Below, in pieces: positions 51,143-59,850 of a stretch of 64,000 nucleotides of DNA. The notes beneath the pieces were generated by a model, which ran no database searches, was not told the DNA's origin, and was given only the letters and a program-made list of their open reading frames with translations. Source of the DNA: Natronobacterium texcoconense. GTDB taxonomy: Archaea; Halobacteriota; Halobacteria; Halobacteriales; Natrialbaceae. A program made the translations under genes and the position numbers. The first letter of the stretch is position 1; every line of letters begins with the position of its first letter. The stretch spans positions 124,001 through 188,000 of the forward strand of contig NZ_FNLC01000005.1 of the NCBI RefSeq assembly GCF_900104065.1, given 5' to 3'.

Positions 51143-51655
51143 TCACTCCGTCGTCTCGTCATCCGCGAGATAGTCGTCCTGAACGGCGACGACCTCGGTC
51201 GAGTCGTCACACTCGCTGTACCGCCGCAGGGGTTCTTCGTTGAGCGTCAGGAACGTCTCACCCCAGCGGAACGGCTCGAGCAGGTCCTCGGCTGCTTCCC
51301 GCTCGCCGAAGATACAGAGCGCGCCGGCCAGGGCTTCGACGGTCGTCAGTCGAAACGGCCGCCCGTAGTTGACCGGATTCGCGGCGACCAGGAACGGAAG
51401 CGCCCGGTGGACGCCGTTCATCCGGAACGAGGCTTCCTCGGCGGACTCCCACGAGCAGTCGAGCGCGACGAGCGTCTCGAGGCCTTCCTCGCGGTCGGCC
51501 GGCGAGAGCGCCTGGTCAGCGTGGGGGTTGAGGACGACTCCGTAGGGCACCTGGGCCATCTTTCGGTAGAGGATCGCTTTGTCGAACTTCTCGAGGCGAC
51601 GTGCGGTACACTTCTCGGGGTCGTCGTCGCCCTCGTAGTAGACGTGACACTCCAC
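51143..51655 (-). CDS. Tsr3-type rRNA aminocarboxypropyltransferase (DUF367)
   Basis: A 170-residue DUF367 protein, homologous to Tsr3, the enzyme that transfers an aminocarboxypropyl group from S-adenosylmethionine to a small-subunit rRNA uridine. Visible blocks: [19 protein letters not shown] at the start, [44 protein letters not shown]. The GTG at 51655 was chosen because the TATA box at 51676-51685 is 26 bases upstream and the protein then has family length. Confidence 0.9.
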
Positions 51656-51675
51656 GACCGACCAATTGTTCTCCA

Positions 51676-51685
51676 CTATAAAAAC
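51676..51685 (-). promoter_or_regulatory. TATA box of the Tsr3 gene
   Basis: Minus-strand GTTTTTATAG, centred about 26 bases upstream of the GTG start, giving a leaderless message and fixing the start. Confidence 0.6.
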
Positions 51686-51814
51686 GATTCCCTTAAAGAA
51701 AATACCACCCACTAACTGATATAGATTAATTACTGTCGAAAGTGGGTGACGGGAGAGGGAACATGAAGTGGCAGTAATATAGAATTGCGACTGTTTCTCA
51801 CTCAATACGTGAGG

Positions 51815-51822
51815 TTTAAATA
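51815..51822 (+). promoter_or_regulatory. TATA box of the ABC importer operon
   Basis: TTTAAATA centred about 32 bases before the substrate-binding protein ATG; transcription would start about 6 bases before it. The region 51656-51849 is otherwise AT-rich with no other gene. Confidence 0.5.
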
Positions 51823-51849
51823 GTATGGGTCGGAGTAACGTATGTAGAA

Positions 51850-53508
51850 ATGGTAGAAGATAGCAAATCACGGAGAACGGTGCTGAAGGGTGCTGGAATC
51901 GCGGGGGTTACGGGACTCACCGCGAGTCTTGCCGGGTGTACCGGCGGTGAGAACGGTTCGGACGTCGACGGTGCAGACGAACTCGGAGACGAAGTTCCGG
52001 AAATCGAGCTGGTTGCGCCGACGGCGGGTACGAACCCGTTCCGAAACGAACTCGCACAGATCGTCGCCGAGAACTGGGAAGAGATCGGATTCGACGTCGA
52101 ACTCGAGGAACTCGAGTTCGGTGCTCACGTCGACAAAGCCGTCGTTCAGCAGGATTACGACGCGTCGCTGCTGGGCTGGGGTGGCACGCCGGAGCGGATC
52201 GACCCCCACACGTTCATCTACGACATGCACCACTCCGACAACACGCAGGAGGGTGGCCGGAACACGCCGGGCTGGGAGAACGACGAGTACGACGAACTGG
52301 CGGAGCTGCAGGTTACGCAGGTCGACGAGGAAGAACGCCAGCAGACCGTCTACGACGCCCAGGAGATGATCGCCGAAGCGCAGCCACGAACGTACATCGC
52401 GAACGAAGGTGGTTACCACCCGTACGCGAGTGCTCGCGTGGAGAACGTCGATCCGACGCTCGGTGAGGGGCTCAACTCGTTCTGGAACATGATTTCGGCG
52501 ACCCCGACCGACGACGATACGGTTCGATTCGGCTACCCGTCCGAGATCATCTCGCTGAACCCGATGCAGGACCTGGCGACGCCGGACCGTCAGTTCGTCC
52601 GCCTTCTCTACGATCAGCTGTACCGCATCGGTCCGGACGGCTTCCCACAGCCGTGGCTCGCCACGGACGACCCCGAAATCGAAGACGACGGAATGACCTA
52701 CACCGTCGAGATTCGCGACGACGTCACGTTCCACGACGGCGAGGACCTCACGATCGACGACGTCGAGTTCACGTACGAACTGTACGCCGACTCGCCGACC
52801 TACGGCTCGCTCGTCGAGATCATCGACGAGATCGAGACCTCGGGCAACGAGATCACCTTCCACCTCGAGGAGCAGTACGCCCCGTTCACGGCGAACGTCC
52901 TCGGGCAGGTGTACATCTTCCCCGAGCATATCTGGGGCGACGTCGCTCCGGACGAACTCGTCGACTTCGAAGACGAGAACTGGACCGGCAGCGGTCCGTT
53001 CCAGTTCCGCGACTGGGAGCGCCAGTCCGAACTGCAACTCGAGGCGTTCGACGACCACTTCGAGACGCCGAACGCGGACAACTTCATCCGCATCCCCGGC
53101 GCCGACACCGCACAGCTCGTCAACGACCTCGAAGCCGGTCAGATCGACATGGTCGGTGCGGTCCCGCAGCCGACGGCCGTCGACCGCGTCAGGGACGACG
53201 ACGACCTCGCTCTCGCGGAGTTCGAGGCTATCGGCTACGCGATGATCGAGTACAACACGCGTCGCGAACCGTTCGACGACCGTCACGTCCGCCGCGCACT
53301 CTCCTACGGTGTGCCGAAAGAGGAGTACGTCGAGTTCATCCGCGACGGGATGGGTACCGTCACCCACACGACGATCTCGGAACACAACGAGTTCTGGCAC
53401 AACCCGGACGTCGAGGAGTTCTACGAGGACCTCGAGGCCGCACGCGAAGAGCTCGCCGAGGGCGGCTACGGCTGGGACGACGACGACCGCCTCCACTACG
53501 GCGCATAA
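51850..53508 (+). CDS. circularly permuted family-5 substrate-binding lipoprotein
   Basis: A 552-residue solute-binding lipoprotein: Tat-like signal [14 protein letters not shown] and lipobox with C30. In the canonical dipeptide/oligopeptide (SBP_bac_5) order, the N-lobe comes first and the lobe with an amidating-strand ELVAP...[17 protein letters not shown]...DASLLGWGG...QEMIAEAQP is last. Here that second lobe is residues 51-219, and the first lobe ([75 protein letters not shown]) is residues 224-552. The protein stops where the canonical chain would continue. The downstream genes are a full oligopeptide importer. Confidence 0.88.
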
Positions 53509-53598: not shown

Positions 53599-54579
53599 AT
53601 GGGACTGAGAGCGTACGTCGTCAGACGGATCCTCCAGCTCGTCGTCACCTTCTGGGCGTTCTTCACGCTCCTGTTTGTTCTCTTTCGGATGATGCCAGGC
53701 GATCCGACGTCGATGTTCATCATGGACGGCATGACTCCGGAACAGCGCGAACAGCGGATCGCAGAACTGGGACTTGATCAGCCGCTGTACGTACAGTACG
53801 TCGAGTACATTCGACAGCTGCTCACCGGTGACTTCGGTCAATCGTTCATCTACCGCGAGCCGGTGCTCGACATCATCGCCGTCCGGTTTATGAACACGAT
53901 CGTCCTGATGGGGACGGCGCTGTTCTTTGCGTACCTCATCGGGGTTACGTTCGGCGCACTGATGGGCTGGTGGCGCGACTCGAAGTTCGAACGCGGCGGG
54001 ATCATCGTGACGCTGATGGCCCGTTCCTCGCCGGAGTTCTGGGTTGGAATCGTCCTCGTGTCCGTGTTCGTCTTCTGGCTCGGCTGGTTCCCTTCGAGCG
54101 GGATGCGGACGACCGGGGGCGAACTCGGCGGTGGCTTCCTCGCCAGGTACGGTTCGGTGGACTTCCTGCGCCACCTGTTCCTCCCGGCGTTGACCGGGGC
54201 GATCGTCTATCTGGCGACGCCGACGCTGCTGATGCGGTCGACGATGCTCGACGTGTTGAACGCCGACTTCATCGAGATCAAGAAGGCGGAGGGACTGCCC
54301 GAACGGACGGTGCTGTACAAACACGCCGCCCGGAACTCGATTCTCCCCATCGTGACGGTGGCAGCGATTGCGACCGGCGCCGCAATGGGCGGATCCGTCG
54401 TCATCGAGACGGTGTTCAACTGGCCCGGTATGGGCCGCGAGATGGTGAGTGCGGTGAACCAGAACGACTATCCGCTGGCAATGGCGGCGTTCTTCCTCAT
54501 GGGATCGGTCGTGATCATCATGAACTTCGTCGCTGACCTGGCCTACGTCTACCTCGATCCGAGGGTGGAGTACGAATGA
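53599..54579 (+). CDS. dppB: oligopeptide ABC transporter permease (DppB-like)
   Basis: A 326-residue permease with six membrane helices and a large loop after helix 1 typical of DppB. The ABC-contact loop is in the region ADFIEIKKAEGLPERTVLYKHAARNS, the EAA-type motif (AEGL...HA.RN). It follows the binding-protein gene by 90 bases. Its last bases overlap the next permease start (ATGA, 54576-54579). Confidence 0.93.
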   Translation: MGLRAYVVRRILQLVVTFWAFFTLLFVLFRMMPGDPTSMFIMDGMTPEQREQRIAELGLDQPLYVQYVEYIRQLLTGDFGQSFIYREPVLDIIAVRFMNTIVLMGTALFFAYLIGVTFGALMGWWRDSKFERGGIIVTLMARSSPEFWVGIVLVSVFVFWLGWFPSSGMRTTGGELGGGFLARYGSVDFLRHLFLPALTGAIVYLATPTLLMRSTMLDVLNADFIEIKKAEGLPERTVLYKHAARNSILPIVTVAAIATGAAMGGSVVIETVFNWPGMGREMVSAVNQNDYPLAMAAFFLMGSVVIIMNFVADLAYVYLDPRVEYE

Positions 54580-55514
54580 GTACCGAACGAACGTCACCGA
54601 CCGACCGCGCAACGGAAACCACCAGGAACGGCCTCGAGTACGCCCGTTCGAAACTCGAGATATTCGAGGGAGACAGGCTCGGCCAGATCGGGCTCGCTAT
54701 CCTGGCAGTATTCATCCTGATCGGGATCTTCGCCCGGCCGTACACGATCGAGTTCCTCGATCTGACGATCCCCGGACTCGCACCGCACGATCCAAGCGAG
54801 CGAGCCGTCGGAGGCCGTCTCGAGTCGCCGTCGGCCGACCACCCGCTCGGAACGACGGACATGGGCCGGGACGTGCTCTCACAGCTGATTGCGGGCACTC
54901 GCGTAACGCTGATCGTCGGCAGCCTCGCGGCGTTCATGGCGGTCTTCATCGGGACGAACGTCGGCCTGATCAGTGCCTACTTCGGCGGCTGGGTCGACGA
55001 CACGCTGATGCGGATTACTGACATCGTCTACGGGGTTCCGTTCCTGCCCTTTGCGATCGTCCTCGTGGCGATCCTGGGCAGCAGCCTCGTCAACATCATC
55101 GTCGCGATCGTGTTGATCCTGTGGCGGTCGACGGCACGGGTGATCCGCTCGCAGGTGTTGAGTCACAAACAGCGGCCGTACGTCGAGAGCGCACAGGCGA
55201 TCGGTGCCGGCCACGTACGGATCATGTACCGACACATCCTGCCGAACGTCCTGCCGCTTACGTTCCTGTATGCAGCCTTCGCTGTCGCGTGGGCGGTGAT
55301 CGCCGAGGCGAGTCTCTCGTTCCTCGGCTTCGGTGACCCCAGCATGCTCTCGTGGGGTGAGATGATCTACAACGTTCACACGGCAAACGCGATCCGCGAA
55401 GCCTGGTGGTGGGTCTTCCCACCGGGTATCTGCATCATGCTGTTCGTGATGTCGGTGTTCTTCATCGGTCGCACCCTCGAGAAAGAGGTTAATCCGGAGC
55501 TGAAACATCAATAA
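54576..55514 (+). CDS. dppC: oligopeptide ABC transporter permease (DppC-like)
   Basis: A 312-residue permease. A cytoplasmic N-terminal helix and one TM segment, then GTTDMGRDVLSQLIAGTRV (DppC-typical), four further helices and the EAA motif YVESAQAIGAGHVRIMYRHILPN. Partner of DppB in the membrane channel. Starts inside the DppB stop and shares a TAATG junction with the ATPase gene. Confidence 0.93.
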   Translation: MSTERTSPTDRATETTRNGLEYARSKLEIFEGDRLGQIGLAILAVFILIGIFARPYTIEFLDLTIPGLAPHDPSERAVGGRLESPSADHPLGTTDMGRDVLSQLIAGTRVTLIVGSLAAFMAVFIGTNVGLISAYFGGWVDDTLMRITDIVYGVPFLPFAIVLVAILGSSLVNIIVAIVLILWRSTARVIRSQVLSHKQRPYVESAQAIGAGHVRIMYRHILPNVLPLTFLYAAFAVAWAVIAEASLSFLGFGDPSMLSWGEMIYNVHTANAIREAWWWVFPPGICIMLFVMSVFFIGRTLEKEVNPELKHQ

Positions 55515-56602
55515 TGACGCTACTCGATATCAACGAACTGAAGACGTACTACCGGGCCGACGACGGCTGGGTTCGTGCGACTGACGACGCGTCGCTCTCT
55601 ATCGAACGCGGCGAGACGGTCGGTCTGGTCGGCGAAAGTGGCAGCGGCAAGACGACGCTCGCGAAATCGATCATTCGGCTGTTGCCGGACAACGCCGAAA
55701 TCAAGGGCGGCTCGATCGACTTCGACGGGACCGAGGTAACGGAACTCTCGGATCGGCAACTGCGCAAGCAGATCCGCTGGTCGGAGGTGTCGATGATCCC
55801 GCAGAACGCGATGAACGGGTTCGACCCGGTCTACACCGTCGGCGAGCAGATCGTTGAAGTAATCACGTACCACGAGGACACCTCGAAAGCGGAGGCGAAA
55901 GAGCGCGCCCGCGAACTGTTCGACGACCTCGGGATCGATCCCGACCGCGTCGACGACTACCCCCACCAGTTCTCCGGTGGGATGGCACAGCGAGCGATGA
56001 TCGCGCTCGCGCTCGCGCTGTCGCCGTCGCTCGTGCTCGCCGACGAGCCGACGACGGCACTGGACGTCGTGATTCAGGATCGCATTCTGGACACGATCAA
56101 GGAGATGCAAGAGGAGATAAACAGCGCGATGATCATGATCACCCACGACATGTCGGTCGTCAGCGAAACCTGCGACCGCATCGCGGTGGTCTACGGTGGT
56201 CGGATCGTCGAAATCGCCGACGCCGAGACGATCATCTCGAACCCTCGCCACCCCTACACGCTCGGGCTGCGAAACGCCTTCCCGGACATCAGCGACGACG
56301 ACAAGGAACTCATCTCCATCCCCGGCACGCCACCGGATCTCGTCGATCCTGGCGAAGGATGCCGATTCGCCCCGCGCTGTCCGTTCGCCCAGGAGGAGTG
56401 CTGGGAAGTAACTCCCGAGGCCGAACCCTACGGCGACGGCCACGAGGTCGAGTGCCATCGTGCCGACGAGATCGAACTCCTGCAGGAGGAAGCCGCCAAG
56501 AAGTCGACCTGGTACGACCAGGAACTCGGCGAGCAGGACGCCGCTGTACCGGCGGCCGACACCGCAAGCGAAACGGAACCGGAGGTGGAACTCGATGACT
56601 GA
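55514..56602 (+). CDS. dppD: oligopeptide ABC transporter ATPase (DppD-like)
   Basis: A 362-residue ATPase: Walker A GESGSGKTT, Q-loop MIPQNAMNGFDP, signature FSGGMAQR, Walker B VLADEPTTALD, H-loop THD; C-terminal oligopeptide transporter segment HPYTLGLRNAFP ... CRFAPRCPFAQEEC with cysteines that can hold an iron-sulfur cluster. An acidic tail of about 60 residues follows. Starts with TAATG overlap and ends 8 bases inside the next gene. Confidence 0.93.
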   Translation: MTLLDINELKTYYRADDGWVRATDDASLSIERGETVGLVGESGSGKTTLAKSIIRLLPDNAEIKGGSIDFDGTEVTELSDRQLRKQIRWSEVSMIPQNAMNGFDPVYTVGEQIVEVITYHEDTSKAEAKERARELFDDLGIDPDRVDDYPHQFSGGMAQRAMIALALALSPSLVLADEPTTALDVVIQDRILDTIKEMQEEINSAMIMITHDMSVVSETCDRIAVVYGGRIVEIADAETIISNPRHPYTLGLRNAFPDISDDDKELISIPGTPPDLVDPGEGCRFAPRCPFAQEECWEVTPEAEPYGDGHEVECHRADEIELLQEEAAKKSTWYDQELGEQDAAVPAADTASETEPEVELDD

Positions 56603-57926
56603 CACACTCGCGGCCGAACACGACCGAAGCGACGACGACCACTCGTACAAGCTCCGGGTCGAAAACCTGGAGAAACACTTCCCGGTCAACACCGGGCTCG
56701 TCTCCCGAATTCTCCACGGTGAGAGCAACGACGCGGTCAAAGCCGTCGACGGCGTTTCGCTCGGCATTCGAGAGGGGGAGGCGTTCGGTCTCGCCGGCGA
56801 ATCCGGCTGTGGGAAGACCACTCTCGGCAAGAGTGCCATTCGGCTGCTCGAGCCGACGGGCGGTGACATTTACTTCGACGGGAAGGCGATCACCGACGTC
56901 GGTGGCCAGGAACTCAACGAGTTCCGCCGCGAGGCCCAGATCATCCACCAGGACCCGTACAAGTCGCTCAACCCGCGATTCACGGTCTACGAGTGGGTGA
57001 AGGAGCCGCTGGACGTCCACGACATCGGCACCGCCGAGGAACGGGACGCACGGGTCTACGAGACGATCGAACAGGCGGGACTCGAGCCCGCAGAGGCGTA
57101 CGCCCACGAGTATCCGAGCGAACTGAGCGGTGGTGAACGCCAGCGCGTCGGCATCGCCCGGGCGCTCGCGCTCGAGCCGTCGTTCCTGCTGGCGGACGAA
57201 CCCGCGAGCATGCTCGACGTGTCGATCCGTGCGAGCATCCTCGACCTGTTCAAGCGGCTGCAGTCGGAACTCGGGTTGACCGCGGTCTACATCAGCCACG
57301 ACCTCTCCCTGCTCAAGCACATGTGCGACCGGATCGGCATCATGTACCTCGGCGAACTGGTCGAGGTCGGTCCGGCCGACCAGATCATCAACGATCCGAA
57401 ACACCCCTACACGCAGGCGCTGGTCTCCTCGGTCCCCCGAATCGATCCGAGCGAGAACCGCGAACGGATCGAACTCGTCGGTGAGGTACCGGACCCCGTC
57501 GACGTCCCGAGCGGCTGTCGGTTCCACCCGCGCTGTCCGAAACTCGTCCAGCCCGAGGGCTACGAGTTCGACCAGGACGACTGGCGCGCGGTCGCGAACC
57601 TGCGCCACGACCTGTTACAGGGCGAGATCACCCTCACGGAGGAAGACGAGACGGAGACGCCGGAAGCGATCCGCGAGGCCTACGACGTTCCGGTCCAGCT
57701 TTCGGACGCCGACGCCGAACAGGTGCTCTCGGAGGCCCTCGAGACCGCCATCACGGGCGACCGCGACGCCGCTCGAGAGCGTCTCGAGACGGAGTTTGCG
57801 ACGCCGTGTGAGCGAGATGGGCTCGAGACCTATCAGGTCACCTCCGAGCAGACTGCGAAGTGCGTTCGGTACGACGACGACCCACGGTACGGTCCCGAGG
57901 GCGGCGGCAGCTACGACCCGAACTGA
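56595..57926 (+). CDS. dppF: oligopeptide ABC transporter ATPase (DppF-like) with C-terminal extension
   Basis: A 443-residue ATPase: Walker A GESGCGKTT, Q-loop IIHQDPYKSLNP, signature LSGGERQR, Walker B LLADEPASMLD, H-loop SHD, then HPYTQALVSSVP and the CRFHPRCP Cys motif. About 105 residues beyond the usual end include DADAEQVLSEALETAITGDRDA and a Cys in TPCERDGL. Standard DppF ends near residue 335, so the tail is extra. Starts 8 bases before the DppD stop. Confidence 0.92.
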   Translation: MTDTLAAEHDRSDDDHSYKLRVENLEKHFPVNTGLVSRILHGESNDAVKAVDGVSLGIREGEAFGLAGESGCGKTTLGKSAIRLLEPTGGDIYFDGKAITDVGGQELNEFRREAQIIHQDPYKSLNPRFTVYEWVKEPLDVHDIGTAEERDARVYETIEQAGLEPAEAYAHEYPSELSGGERQRVGIARALALEPSFLLADEPASMLDVSIRASILDLFKRLQSELGLTAVYISHDLSLLKHMCDRIGIMYLGELVEVGPADQIINDPKHPYTQALVSSVPRIDPSENRERIELVGEVPDPVDVPSGCRFHPRCPKLVQPEGYEFDQDDWRAVANLRHDLLQGEITLTEEDETETPEAIREAYDVPVQLSDADAEQVLSEALETAITGDRDAARERLETEFATPCERDGLETYQVTSEQTAKCVRYDDDPRYGPEGGGSYDPN

Positions 57927-57927
57927 G

Positions 57928-59736
57928 CTACTCTCCACTTCCGCTTCCGTTTTCGTGTACGGTCTCGCCGCGATTGAGTCGCGTCGCTATCGAGAACGTC
58001 TGTTCTGCCTCGCGGCGCGTCGGGAAGTGTGCGGCCATGTAGCGAGCGGTCGCGATCAATGGCCGGCGTCGGCGCTGCTCGAGGGCGACGCCCTCCGAGT
58101 CCTCTCGCTCATCGACCAAATCGAACTGCCGGAACGCCGCCTCGAGATTTTGCAGCGTGTGGAAGCCGGCGTCCTCGCGTAACAGTCCGTGACCGAGCGT
58201 TCGCTTCAGTGCCGCCGGATCGCCGCCGCAGTCGAAGAACTCGCCGACCAGACGGGCGGCCTCGTTCACGCCGCCCTCGGCGTCGAAGGTCTCGAGCAGG
58301 TCTTCACGGATCGCGTCCGGCTCTCGGCCGGTGTCGTCGCCCGGTTCCGGCATCGGTGCTGGCGGCGTGTTGAGGAACCGATCGAGGTAGACGCTGAGCG
58401 CGGCGTCGAAGACGCCTCTGTAGAGTTCGATGGCGTCGGTTCGTCGCGTCGAGACGTGGACCGCGTTAGCGTACGTAAAGGTGTGGTGGACGGTATTCCA
58501 GTCGCCGAACTCGTTGCCGGTGCCGAACTGGGCGACTCGCGTCGTAGCTGCTGCTGCGACTTCGGCGGCGAGGTCCTCCGTCGTCGCACCCTCGCGAACG
58601 GCGTCGGCCAGCGCGTCGACGATCGCTTCGGGGTCGTCGCCCAGCAGCGTCTCCTGAAACTCTGCCGGCGGTGACCAGGACTTCCCCTTGCCCTCGCTCG
58701 CGAGGTCCTCGAGTCCGCTCGTCTCCGTCACCGATCCGCCGTAGACGTCCTCGAGCAGCGCCACGAGGTCGACGGGCTGGCGCCACGACGAACGCTCGTC
58801 GCTCCGGTCGGCGGTGACCAGTGGCTGGACGAGACTCGCGAGCGCGTCCGCGGTGTGCTCGGAGTCGACGTGCTCGAGCGTCTCGAAGGCCGTGTTCGCG
58901 AAGTCGAGTACGTGGCCGGTCGAGAGGTAGGGGTGGTCGGTTGCGGCGGCAAAGACCAGTTCCGCGAGTTCGGCCTCCGAGTGGCCGGCGGCGACGGCCG
59001 TCCGAAGACAGCGTTCGGCACCGTCGGGGTCCCGGAGTTCGACGCAGTCCCGGAACCACGACTTCAATCGGTCGAACGGAACGTCCTCGGTCGACAGCGA
59101 CGGCTGGTGGAAGTCCGGCGGCTGGCCAGCGCAGTCGTCCGCGACGTGACGAACGCCGGTGTACAGCGCCCGTTTTCGGTCTCTGGGCTCGAGGTCGTCG
59201 ATCACGTTCGCCATACAGCCGAGAATCGTGAGTCCCGGTCCCCAGCCCGATTCGCGGAACTGCGTGCCGAACTCGAGGGCCTGTGCCGTCGGCTCTCGGT
59301 AGTCGACGCCGGCGTCGAGCGTCCCTATCGTCGCCTTTGCGACGACCAGCCGCAGGTTCTCCTCGAGGCCGGTCTCGAGACGGTCGGCCCAGTGTTCTTC
59401 GGGCGGCAGGTCACGCGGCGGGTTCGGGTTCACGTAGACCGTTCCGTCCCGGACCTCGACCGGGTAGGTGGGGAGGTCGTCGGCCCACGGATCGAACGTG
59501 TCGCCGCAAGCGAGTTCGAACCGCGCGTGGTGCCAGTGACAGGTCAACAGGCCGTCCTCGACGGTCCCCTCGACGAGGGGAAAGCCCATGTGTGGACAGC
59601 GGTTGTTCACCGCCCGAATCTCCCCTTCGTGGTGAAAGAGGACGATCGGGATGCCGTCGAGAGCCACCAGTTCGCGACCGGACTCCTCGAGGCCTTCGAG
59701 CGAAACGGTTTCTCGAAACTCGTCGGACGTTGCCAT
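57928..59736 (-). CDS. Rieske [2Fe-2S] protein with long helical C-terminal region
   Basis: A 602-residue protein. Residues 5-110 form a small Rieske domain with cluster ligands C47 and H49 (RCPHMG) and C66 and H69 (CHWHH), as in ferredoxin-type or oxygenase Rieske proteins. The following 490 residues are largely alpha-helical, His/Asp/Glu-rich, with segments such as ELVFAAATDHPYLSTGHVLD and WNTVHHTFTYANAV. I do not recognise a catalytic iron-binding triad of ring-hydroxylating oxygenases. No signal peptide. It is convergent with DppF. Confidence 0.8.
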   Translation of the reverse strand: MATSDEFRETVSLEGLEESGRELVALDGIPIVLFHHEGEIRAVNNRCPHMGFPLVEGTVEDGLLTCHWHHARFELACGDTFDPWADDLPTYPVEVRDGTVYVNPNPPRDLPPEEHWADRLETGLEENLRLVVAKATIGTLDAGVDYREPTAQALEFGTQFRESGWGPGLTILGCMANVIDDLEPRDRKRALYTGVRHVADDCAGQPPDFHQPSLSTEDVPFDRLKSWFRDCVELRDPDGAERCLRTAVAAGHSEAELAELVFAAATDHPYLSTGHVLDFANTAFETLEHVDSEHTADALASLVQPLVTADRSDERSSWRQPVDLVALLEDVYGGSVTETSGLEDLASEGKGKSWSPPAEFQETLLGDDPEAIVDALADAVREGATTEDLAAEVAAAATTRVAQFGTGNEFGDWNTVHHTFTYANAVHVSTRRTDAIELYRGVFDAALSVYLDRFLNTPPAPMPEPGDDTGREPDAIREDLLETFDAEGGVNEAARLVGEFFDCGGDPAALKRTLGHGLLREDAGFHTLQNLEAAFRQFDLVDEREDSEGVALEQRRRRPLIATARYMAAHFPTRREAEQTFSIATRLNRGETVHENGSGSGE

Positions 59737-59850
59737 ACAGCACGACACGACGAGAGATCGTGTAAACGTTCCCTGAAGCGAGTTATTGTAGCTATCTTGA
59801 TGTTACGTCGAGTACCAGGCTTTTGGCACTCGAGTCGAAACCCTCTCGAC

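Follow-up and report, generated by a model that had tools for sequence, protein, structure and literature searches.

Our sequence comparisons and structural model confirm that the 552-aa open reading frame (ORF) at positions 51850 to 53508 of a 64,000-nucleotide stretch of Natronobacterium texcoconense DNA (the whole stretch is referred to here as the window) encodes a family-5 (cluster C) solute-binding protein (SBP) whose chain is circularly permuted. We consider it very probable that the product is a working, membrane-anchored binding protein of a Dpp/Opp-type importer, that it belongs to an old and widespread permuted clade, and that cluster C has been permuted repeatedly near the same spot. 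The chain would begin in the C-lobe (domain III), run to the old C terminus, pass through a linker of about 10 residues into the old N terminus, and end at a hairpin/helix halfway through domain III, and it is predicted to adopt the usual bilobed flytrap fold. The features of the gene and the adjoining operon are as follows.

51850 to 53508 (+), 552-aa substrate-binding protein of SBP_bac_5 (cluster C) in circularly permuted order, predicted lipoprotein (ORF, Pfam, PDB sequence searches, rotation control, and model)
51850 to 51939 (+), signal region with twin-arginine motif and lipobox LAGC, Cys30 (sequence; lipobox scan of relatives)
51976 to 52506 (+), canonical C-terminal part (the last section of the C-lobe plus the closing section of the N-lobe), now in front, residues 43 to 219 (profile and pairwise matches, fold of the first part)
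52504 to 52509 (+), join at residues 219/220, where the canonical C terminus runs into the mature N terminus of canonical chains, in the short linker SATPTDDDT
52507 to 53505 (+), canonical N-terminal part, residues 220 to 552 (Pfam, phmmer, and model on AppA)
53599 to 54579 (+), DppB-like permease, BPD_transp_1 with BPD_transp_1_N (Pfam)
54576 to 55514 (+), DppC-like permease, BPD_transp_1 (Pfam)
55514 to 56602 (+), DppD-like ATPase, ABC_tran and oligo_HPY (Pfam)
56595 to 57926 (+), DppF-like ATPase, ABC_tran and oligo_HPY (Pfam and ORF list); the start at 56460 given in the ORF list is probably too far upstream

SBP_bac_5 was the sole Pfam-A family matched by the protein (235.4 bits against a cut-off of 32.4). 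Positions 2 to 284 of the Pfam-A profile corresponded to residues 266 to 546, and a search of the genome placed positions 287 to 366 in the same open frame at residues 43 to 132 (window 51976 to 52245; E value, 4.9e-11). The single run through profile positions 1 to 366 that defines the canonical order is thus replaced by one in which positions 287 to 366 precede positions 2 to 284, which are the two matches in swapped order that the first-pass annotation of this DNA had expected from a split search. Judged from these matches, the protein is a homolog of the SBP_bac_5 (cluster C) proteins and represents a permuted branch of the family. In native order, phmmer aligned it with AppA (1xoc) in two broken matches with a total of 144.6 bits, residues 270 to 544 with AppA 69 to 346 and residues 52 to 184 with AppA 360 to 487; the rotated sequence (residues 220 to 552 followed by 43 to 219) gave a single colinear match to AppA 70 to 487 with 155.4 bits. 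Residues 220 to 552 stop at the hairpin where canonical chains continue into the strand now found at residues 52 to 57. Both segments derive from one ancestor, their order is exchanged, and the canonical ends are joined, as in a natural circular permutant. The circular permutation itself is therefore borne out by the swapped Pfam and PDB sequence matches, the rotated-sequence control, and the AlphaFold model, and its join, previously placed near residue 220, by the pairwise matches to AppA and the rotation control. A GWTGD motif had also been listed, and the window sequence reads otherwise at that detail.

The default best Pfam match is limited to residues 266 to 546, and the match of the first part is much weaker, as would be seen if the first 170 or so residues were an unrelated or duplicated domain ahead of a truncated SBP. 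This explanation is highly improbable, as the only match of the first part is to the canonical C-terminal region that would otherwise be missing, and the two parts together span the canonical chain once, with neither present twice. It is refuted by a profile built from the first part only (A3), which matched residues of about 355 to 510 in 54 solved canonical SBPs with E values down to 1e-18; these residues therefore do not come from another family, the finding that the first-pass annotation had named as fatal to its proposal. An assembly or annotation artefact is still less credible, to the point of being negligible, and is refuted by the dozens of independently sequenced genomes, some of them from isolates, that encode relatives colinear over their full length, and by an intact frame with low dN/dS.

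The full chain, modeled with AlphaFold2 and 59 relatives, gave a confident prediction (mean pLDDT, 90.9; pTM, 0.86) with the first 35 residues disordered, and its two parts aligned separately to canonical structures, pointing to a bilobed AppA/DppA-like fold. Residues 220 to 552 of the model were superimposed on AppA 19 to 357 by VIA-align with a Z score of 25.4 (rmsd, 4.1; 329 residues aligned). When folded alone, the first part reached a pLDDT of 75.5 and matched the C-terminal third of canonical proteins (residues of about 350 to 515) with a modest best Z score of 8.7 (rmsd, 6.1; 150 residues aligned), and every structural match listed for it was a family-5 type protein aligned over this same range. 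Comparison of the whole model with solved structures gave no chain that was colinear over the full length (best TM-score by query length, 0.52), and no permuted member turned up among the solved structures, although one may exist. The cut site is the hairpin after helix 528 to 537, with the C-terminal strand of the model at residues 548 to 551 and the first strands at residues 45 to 48 and 52 to 57. From the alignment and the known anatomy of DppA, we infer that both new termini are located in the C-lobe, in contrast to canonical termini, which are in the N-lobe.

In its signal region the window protein carries both a twin-arginine motif and a lipobox, the motifs that suggest an archaeal lipoprotein exported by Tat; the arginines at residues 8 and 9 are invariant and Cys30 is nearly invariant in the A1 set. 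Because both new termini would be in the C-lobe, the lipid anchor would sit on the lobe opposite to that of canonical lipoprotein relatives, and the change of tethered lobe proposed earlier thus follows from the aligned cut point. For TpMglB-2, tethering was put forward by its authors as a possible driver of permutation (PMC4990184), and selection for moving the anchor to the other lobe might be invoked here as well. In a simple pattern scan, a lipobox was present in the haloarchaeal members and most monoderm permuted members, and one independently permuted member has a hydrophobic C-terminal tail instead, both of which favor such selection. However, the same scan recognized no lipobox in diderm members (Pseudomonadota and Spirochaetota), which keep the permuted order, and the same picture would result from neutral drift if a cut in the hairpin is tolerated. 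The diderm members make the anchor change an unlikely general reason for permutation, for which tethering alone is not sufficient; as the selected cause, we regard it as doubtful. The independently permuted member with the tail, L220 (genome G212), lacks a lipobox and ends in a charged linker and the tail PGFGVIAVIAG...RRRR, and it may be anchored at its new C terminus.

Two permeases and two oligo_HPY ATPases, the set expected of a Dpp/Opp-type importer, adjoin the SBP gene, and dppBCDF-like permeases and ATPases were found downstream in nearly all permuted loci with enough flank. The permuted genes are under purifying selection with dN/dS of about 0.1, and values of 0.10 to 0.18 were obtained for the close orthologues of the window gene. 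The DppBCDF-like set and these values support the earlier claim that the operon is intact and the gene functional. A TATA-like TTTAAATA at window 51817 to 51850, about 30 nt 5' of the SBP start codon, suggests a nearly leaderless SBP transcript. On the reverse strand, the longest ORF for a ribosome-biogenesis protein (51143 to 51871; Ribo_biogen_C with Fer4_RLI) shares 22 nt with the start of the SBP gene, which probably reflects a start called too early, and a Rieske-domain protein with an extension of about 500 residues without a Pfam match is convergent to the operon (57928 to 59748).

The window protein is most likely a lipid-anchored receptor of this importer; the operon is observed, and the protein would hand a captured ligand to the DppBCDF-like transporter whose genes directly follow. 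In DppA, R383 and D436 (precursor numbering) hold the ends of the dipeptide (PMC12136057). The columns aligned to these residues hold A and E in the window protein, in a gapped and uncertain part of the alignment, so that the dipeptide-end residues do not appear to be clearly conserved, and we have dropped ligand inference from these ambiguous positions. Neighboring genes in other genomes, encoding M20/M28/M81 peptidases, hydantoinase/oxoprolinase, creatininase, and Rid-type proteins, point to amino-acid or cyclic-amide catabolism; by Pfam, no peptidase, hydantoinase/oxoprolinase, creatininase, or Rid-type gene was seen beside the window operon.

The permuted arrangement is widespread and recurrent, which goes beyond the first-pass annotation. 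Two profiles, in native and rotated order, were made from one alignment; permuted relatives scored 35 to 244 bits higher with the native order, and canonical relatives up to 103 bits higher with the rotated one. This gave a clean split of the relatives used for the trees, with 134 in permuted and about 51 in canonical order. Members of the main permuted clade, colinear from end to end, occur in at least 34 of the roughly 53 Halobacteria genomes sampled and are thus common there. In bacteria the clade is patchy, with members in six phyla (Pseudomonadota, Bacillota, Actinomycetota, Spirochaetota, Deinococcota, and Chloroflexota), including some on plasmids of Rhizobiales and Rhodobacterales. Salt and soda lakes are the source of many of these relatives. 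The genome that contains the window harbors four permuted proteins (the window protein, L009 twice, and L010) along with several canonical paralogues. The phylum scans (A2) detected at least 1 of 299 Pseudomonadota (the seed itself) and at least 6 of 249 Bacillota (seed included), counts that are lower bounds because only the top 4 to 5 candidates per genome were scored; the class scan with the first-part profile (A3) cannot tell permuted from canonical proteins. In Neorhizobium galegae (L197; CP090555.1, 575232 to 576885), the annotation divides a permuted SBP gene into two ORFs, which a frameshift probably explains.

Trees built from rotated sequences placed the window protein in the main clade and revealed a second haloarchaeal permuted clade (L031, L047, L141, and L142), along with two permuted groups, L221 to L223 and L220, in an archaeal family of the same phylum (f18). 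On rotated alignments and with groups named after the first tree had been seen, AU tests rejected a single clade of all permuted proteins (a cost of 451 log units; p-AU, 3.7e-5), a single clade of the two f18 groups (p-AU, 3e-48), and the joining of L220 with the main clade (p-AU, 1.8e-5). Uniting the main and second haloarchaeal clades gave a p-AU of 0.017 with 29 rows, which is only suggestive of separate origins. The second haloarchaeal clade is also cut about 20 residues earlier than the main clade; the helix that ends the first half of canonical proteins (AEQLLEDAG) starts these proteins (AQQIQRGLEAAG), and their chain ends before that helix. The AU tests and the differing cut together therefore support at least three permutation origins well and make four likely. 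A single ancient permutation behind all permuted relatives, with the nested canonical proteins being reversions or tree errors, would agree with cut points that all fall within about 20 residues and with several deep-branching clades on long branches. We nevertheless consider it improbable, in view of the rejected topologies, the different cut in the second haloarchaeal clade, and an f18 permuted group nested inside canonical f18 proteins at 83 to 86% identity. The nearest canonical relatives of the main clade are an Evansella protein (L202) and archaeal L216 to L219, a tie that is weak in the reduced tree, and this raises the possibility of a reversion there. Repeated permutation is the likely reading, in which cluster C has a permutation hot spot, a domain III hairpin/helix where the chain has been reopened independently at least four times (in the main archaeal-bacterial clade, the second haloarchaeal clade, and the two f18 groups), one of these events being so young that a single genus contains both permuted and canonical orthologues.

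In that genus of f18, the canonical protein is found in genomes G113 and G128 and the permuted one in G133, G143, and G189, with no canonical orthologue of the latter three genomes among the matches listed. Permuted L222 and canonical L225 are 86% identical over residues 196 to 520 and 29 to 353, 83% identical over residues 30 to 192 and 353 to 515, and 60% identical between residues 1 to 30 and the signal peptide, respectively. The cut lies between KAGYSE and DNKLKLELWW, the permuted genes have dN/dS values of 0.04 to 0.07, and no further gene fragments were seen near them by tblastn. A permuted gene is divergent to the adjoining operon (L241:7324-8886, reverse strand), whereas a canonical relative is colinear with its own operon (L246:2046-3653, forward strand), and a local rearrangement therefore took place. 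The swap within this genus happened recently and agrees with a scheme in which the gene was duplicated, the copies were fused in frame, the second signal peptide was lost, and both ends were cut back. Haloarchaeon G021 harbors a 1292-aa ORF (L253:1611-5489, reverse strand) with two canonical SBP_bac_5 copies in tandem fusion, such as a duplication-based route to permutation would pass through. The earlier proposal of duplication and truncation is thus strongly suggested by the same-genus pair and the tandem fusion, and for the window's own clade it would hold by analogy only. For the cluster C permutations as a whole, the simplest route would be tandem duplication and in-frame fusion, after which the outer parts were lost but the signal peptide was retained.

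To our knowledge, natural circular permutations are rarely caught near their origin and are rarely repeated. With an old and successful permuted lineage and a young event at 83 to 86% identity in both segments, all in a very large family of transporter proteins, the mechanism, tolerance, and selective value of permutation become testable by direct comparison. Two cautions also follow: in domain annotation, permuted proteins show up as incomplete matches to SBP_bac_5, and the position of their anchor and their docking may not be those of textbook DppA.

The window protein shares with canonical cluster C proteins (AppA, DppA, OppA, and NikA) homology over nearly the full chain, the predicted lobes, and the kind of transporter operon, but differs in its swapped segments, in having its termini in the C-lobe rather than the N-lobe, and in dipeptide-end residues that are not clearly kept. 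Permutation by duplication is a textbook model (PMC3320104), and the G021 tandem fusion and the same-genus pair fit its intermediates and outcome; here, unlike in that model, the signal peptide must stay at the new N terminus, and an internal deletion behind it is therefore needed. We found no published cluster C permutant in the open-access literature. TpMglB-2 (Tp0684) of Treponema pallidum and its relatives is a permuted cluster B glucose-binding lipoprotein for which a cluster Bc was proposed (PMC4990184). Both are natural circular permutations of ABC-importer binding proteins that are mostly tethered and have both termini in one lobe. The SBP cluster and the cut are different, and the window protein falls outside cluster Bc, with SBP_bac_5 as its only Pfam match and family-5 type proteins as the PDB sequence matches listed. 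Furthermore, the moved part of TpMglB-2 is 13% identical to its canonical counterpart, whereas the present case offers clear homology in both parts as well as recent canonical counterparts. A permuted binding protein thus has a precedent in cluster B, and its recurrence is the surprising part.
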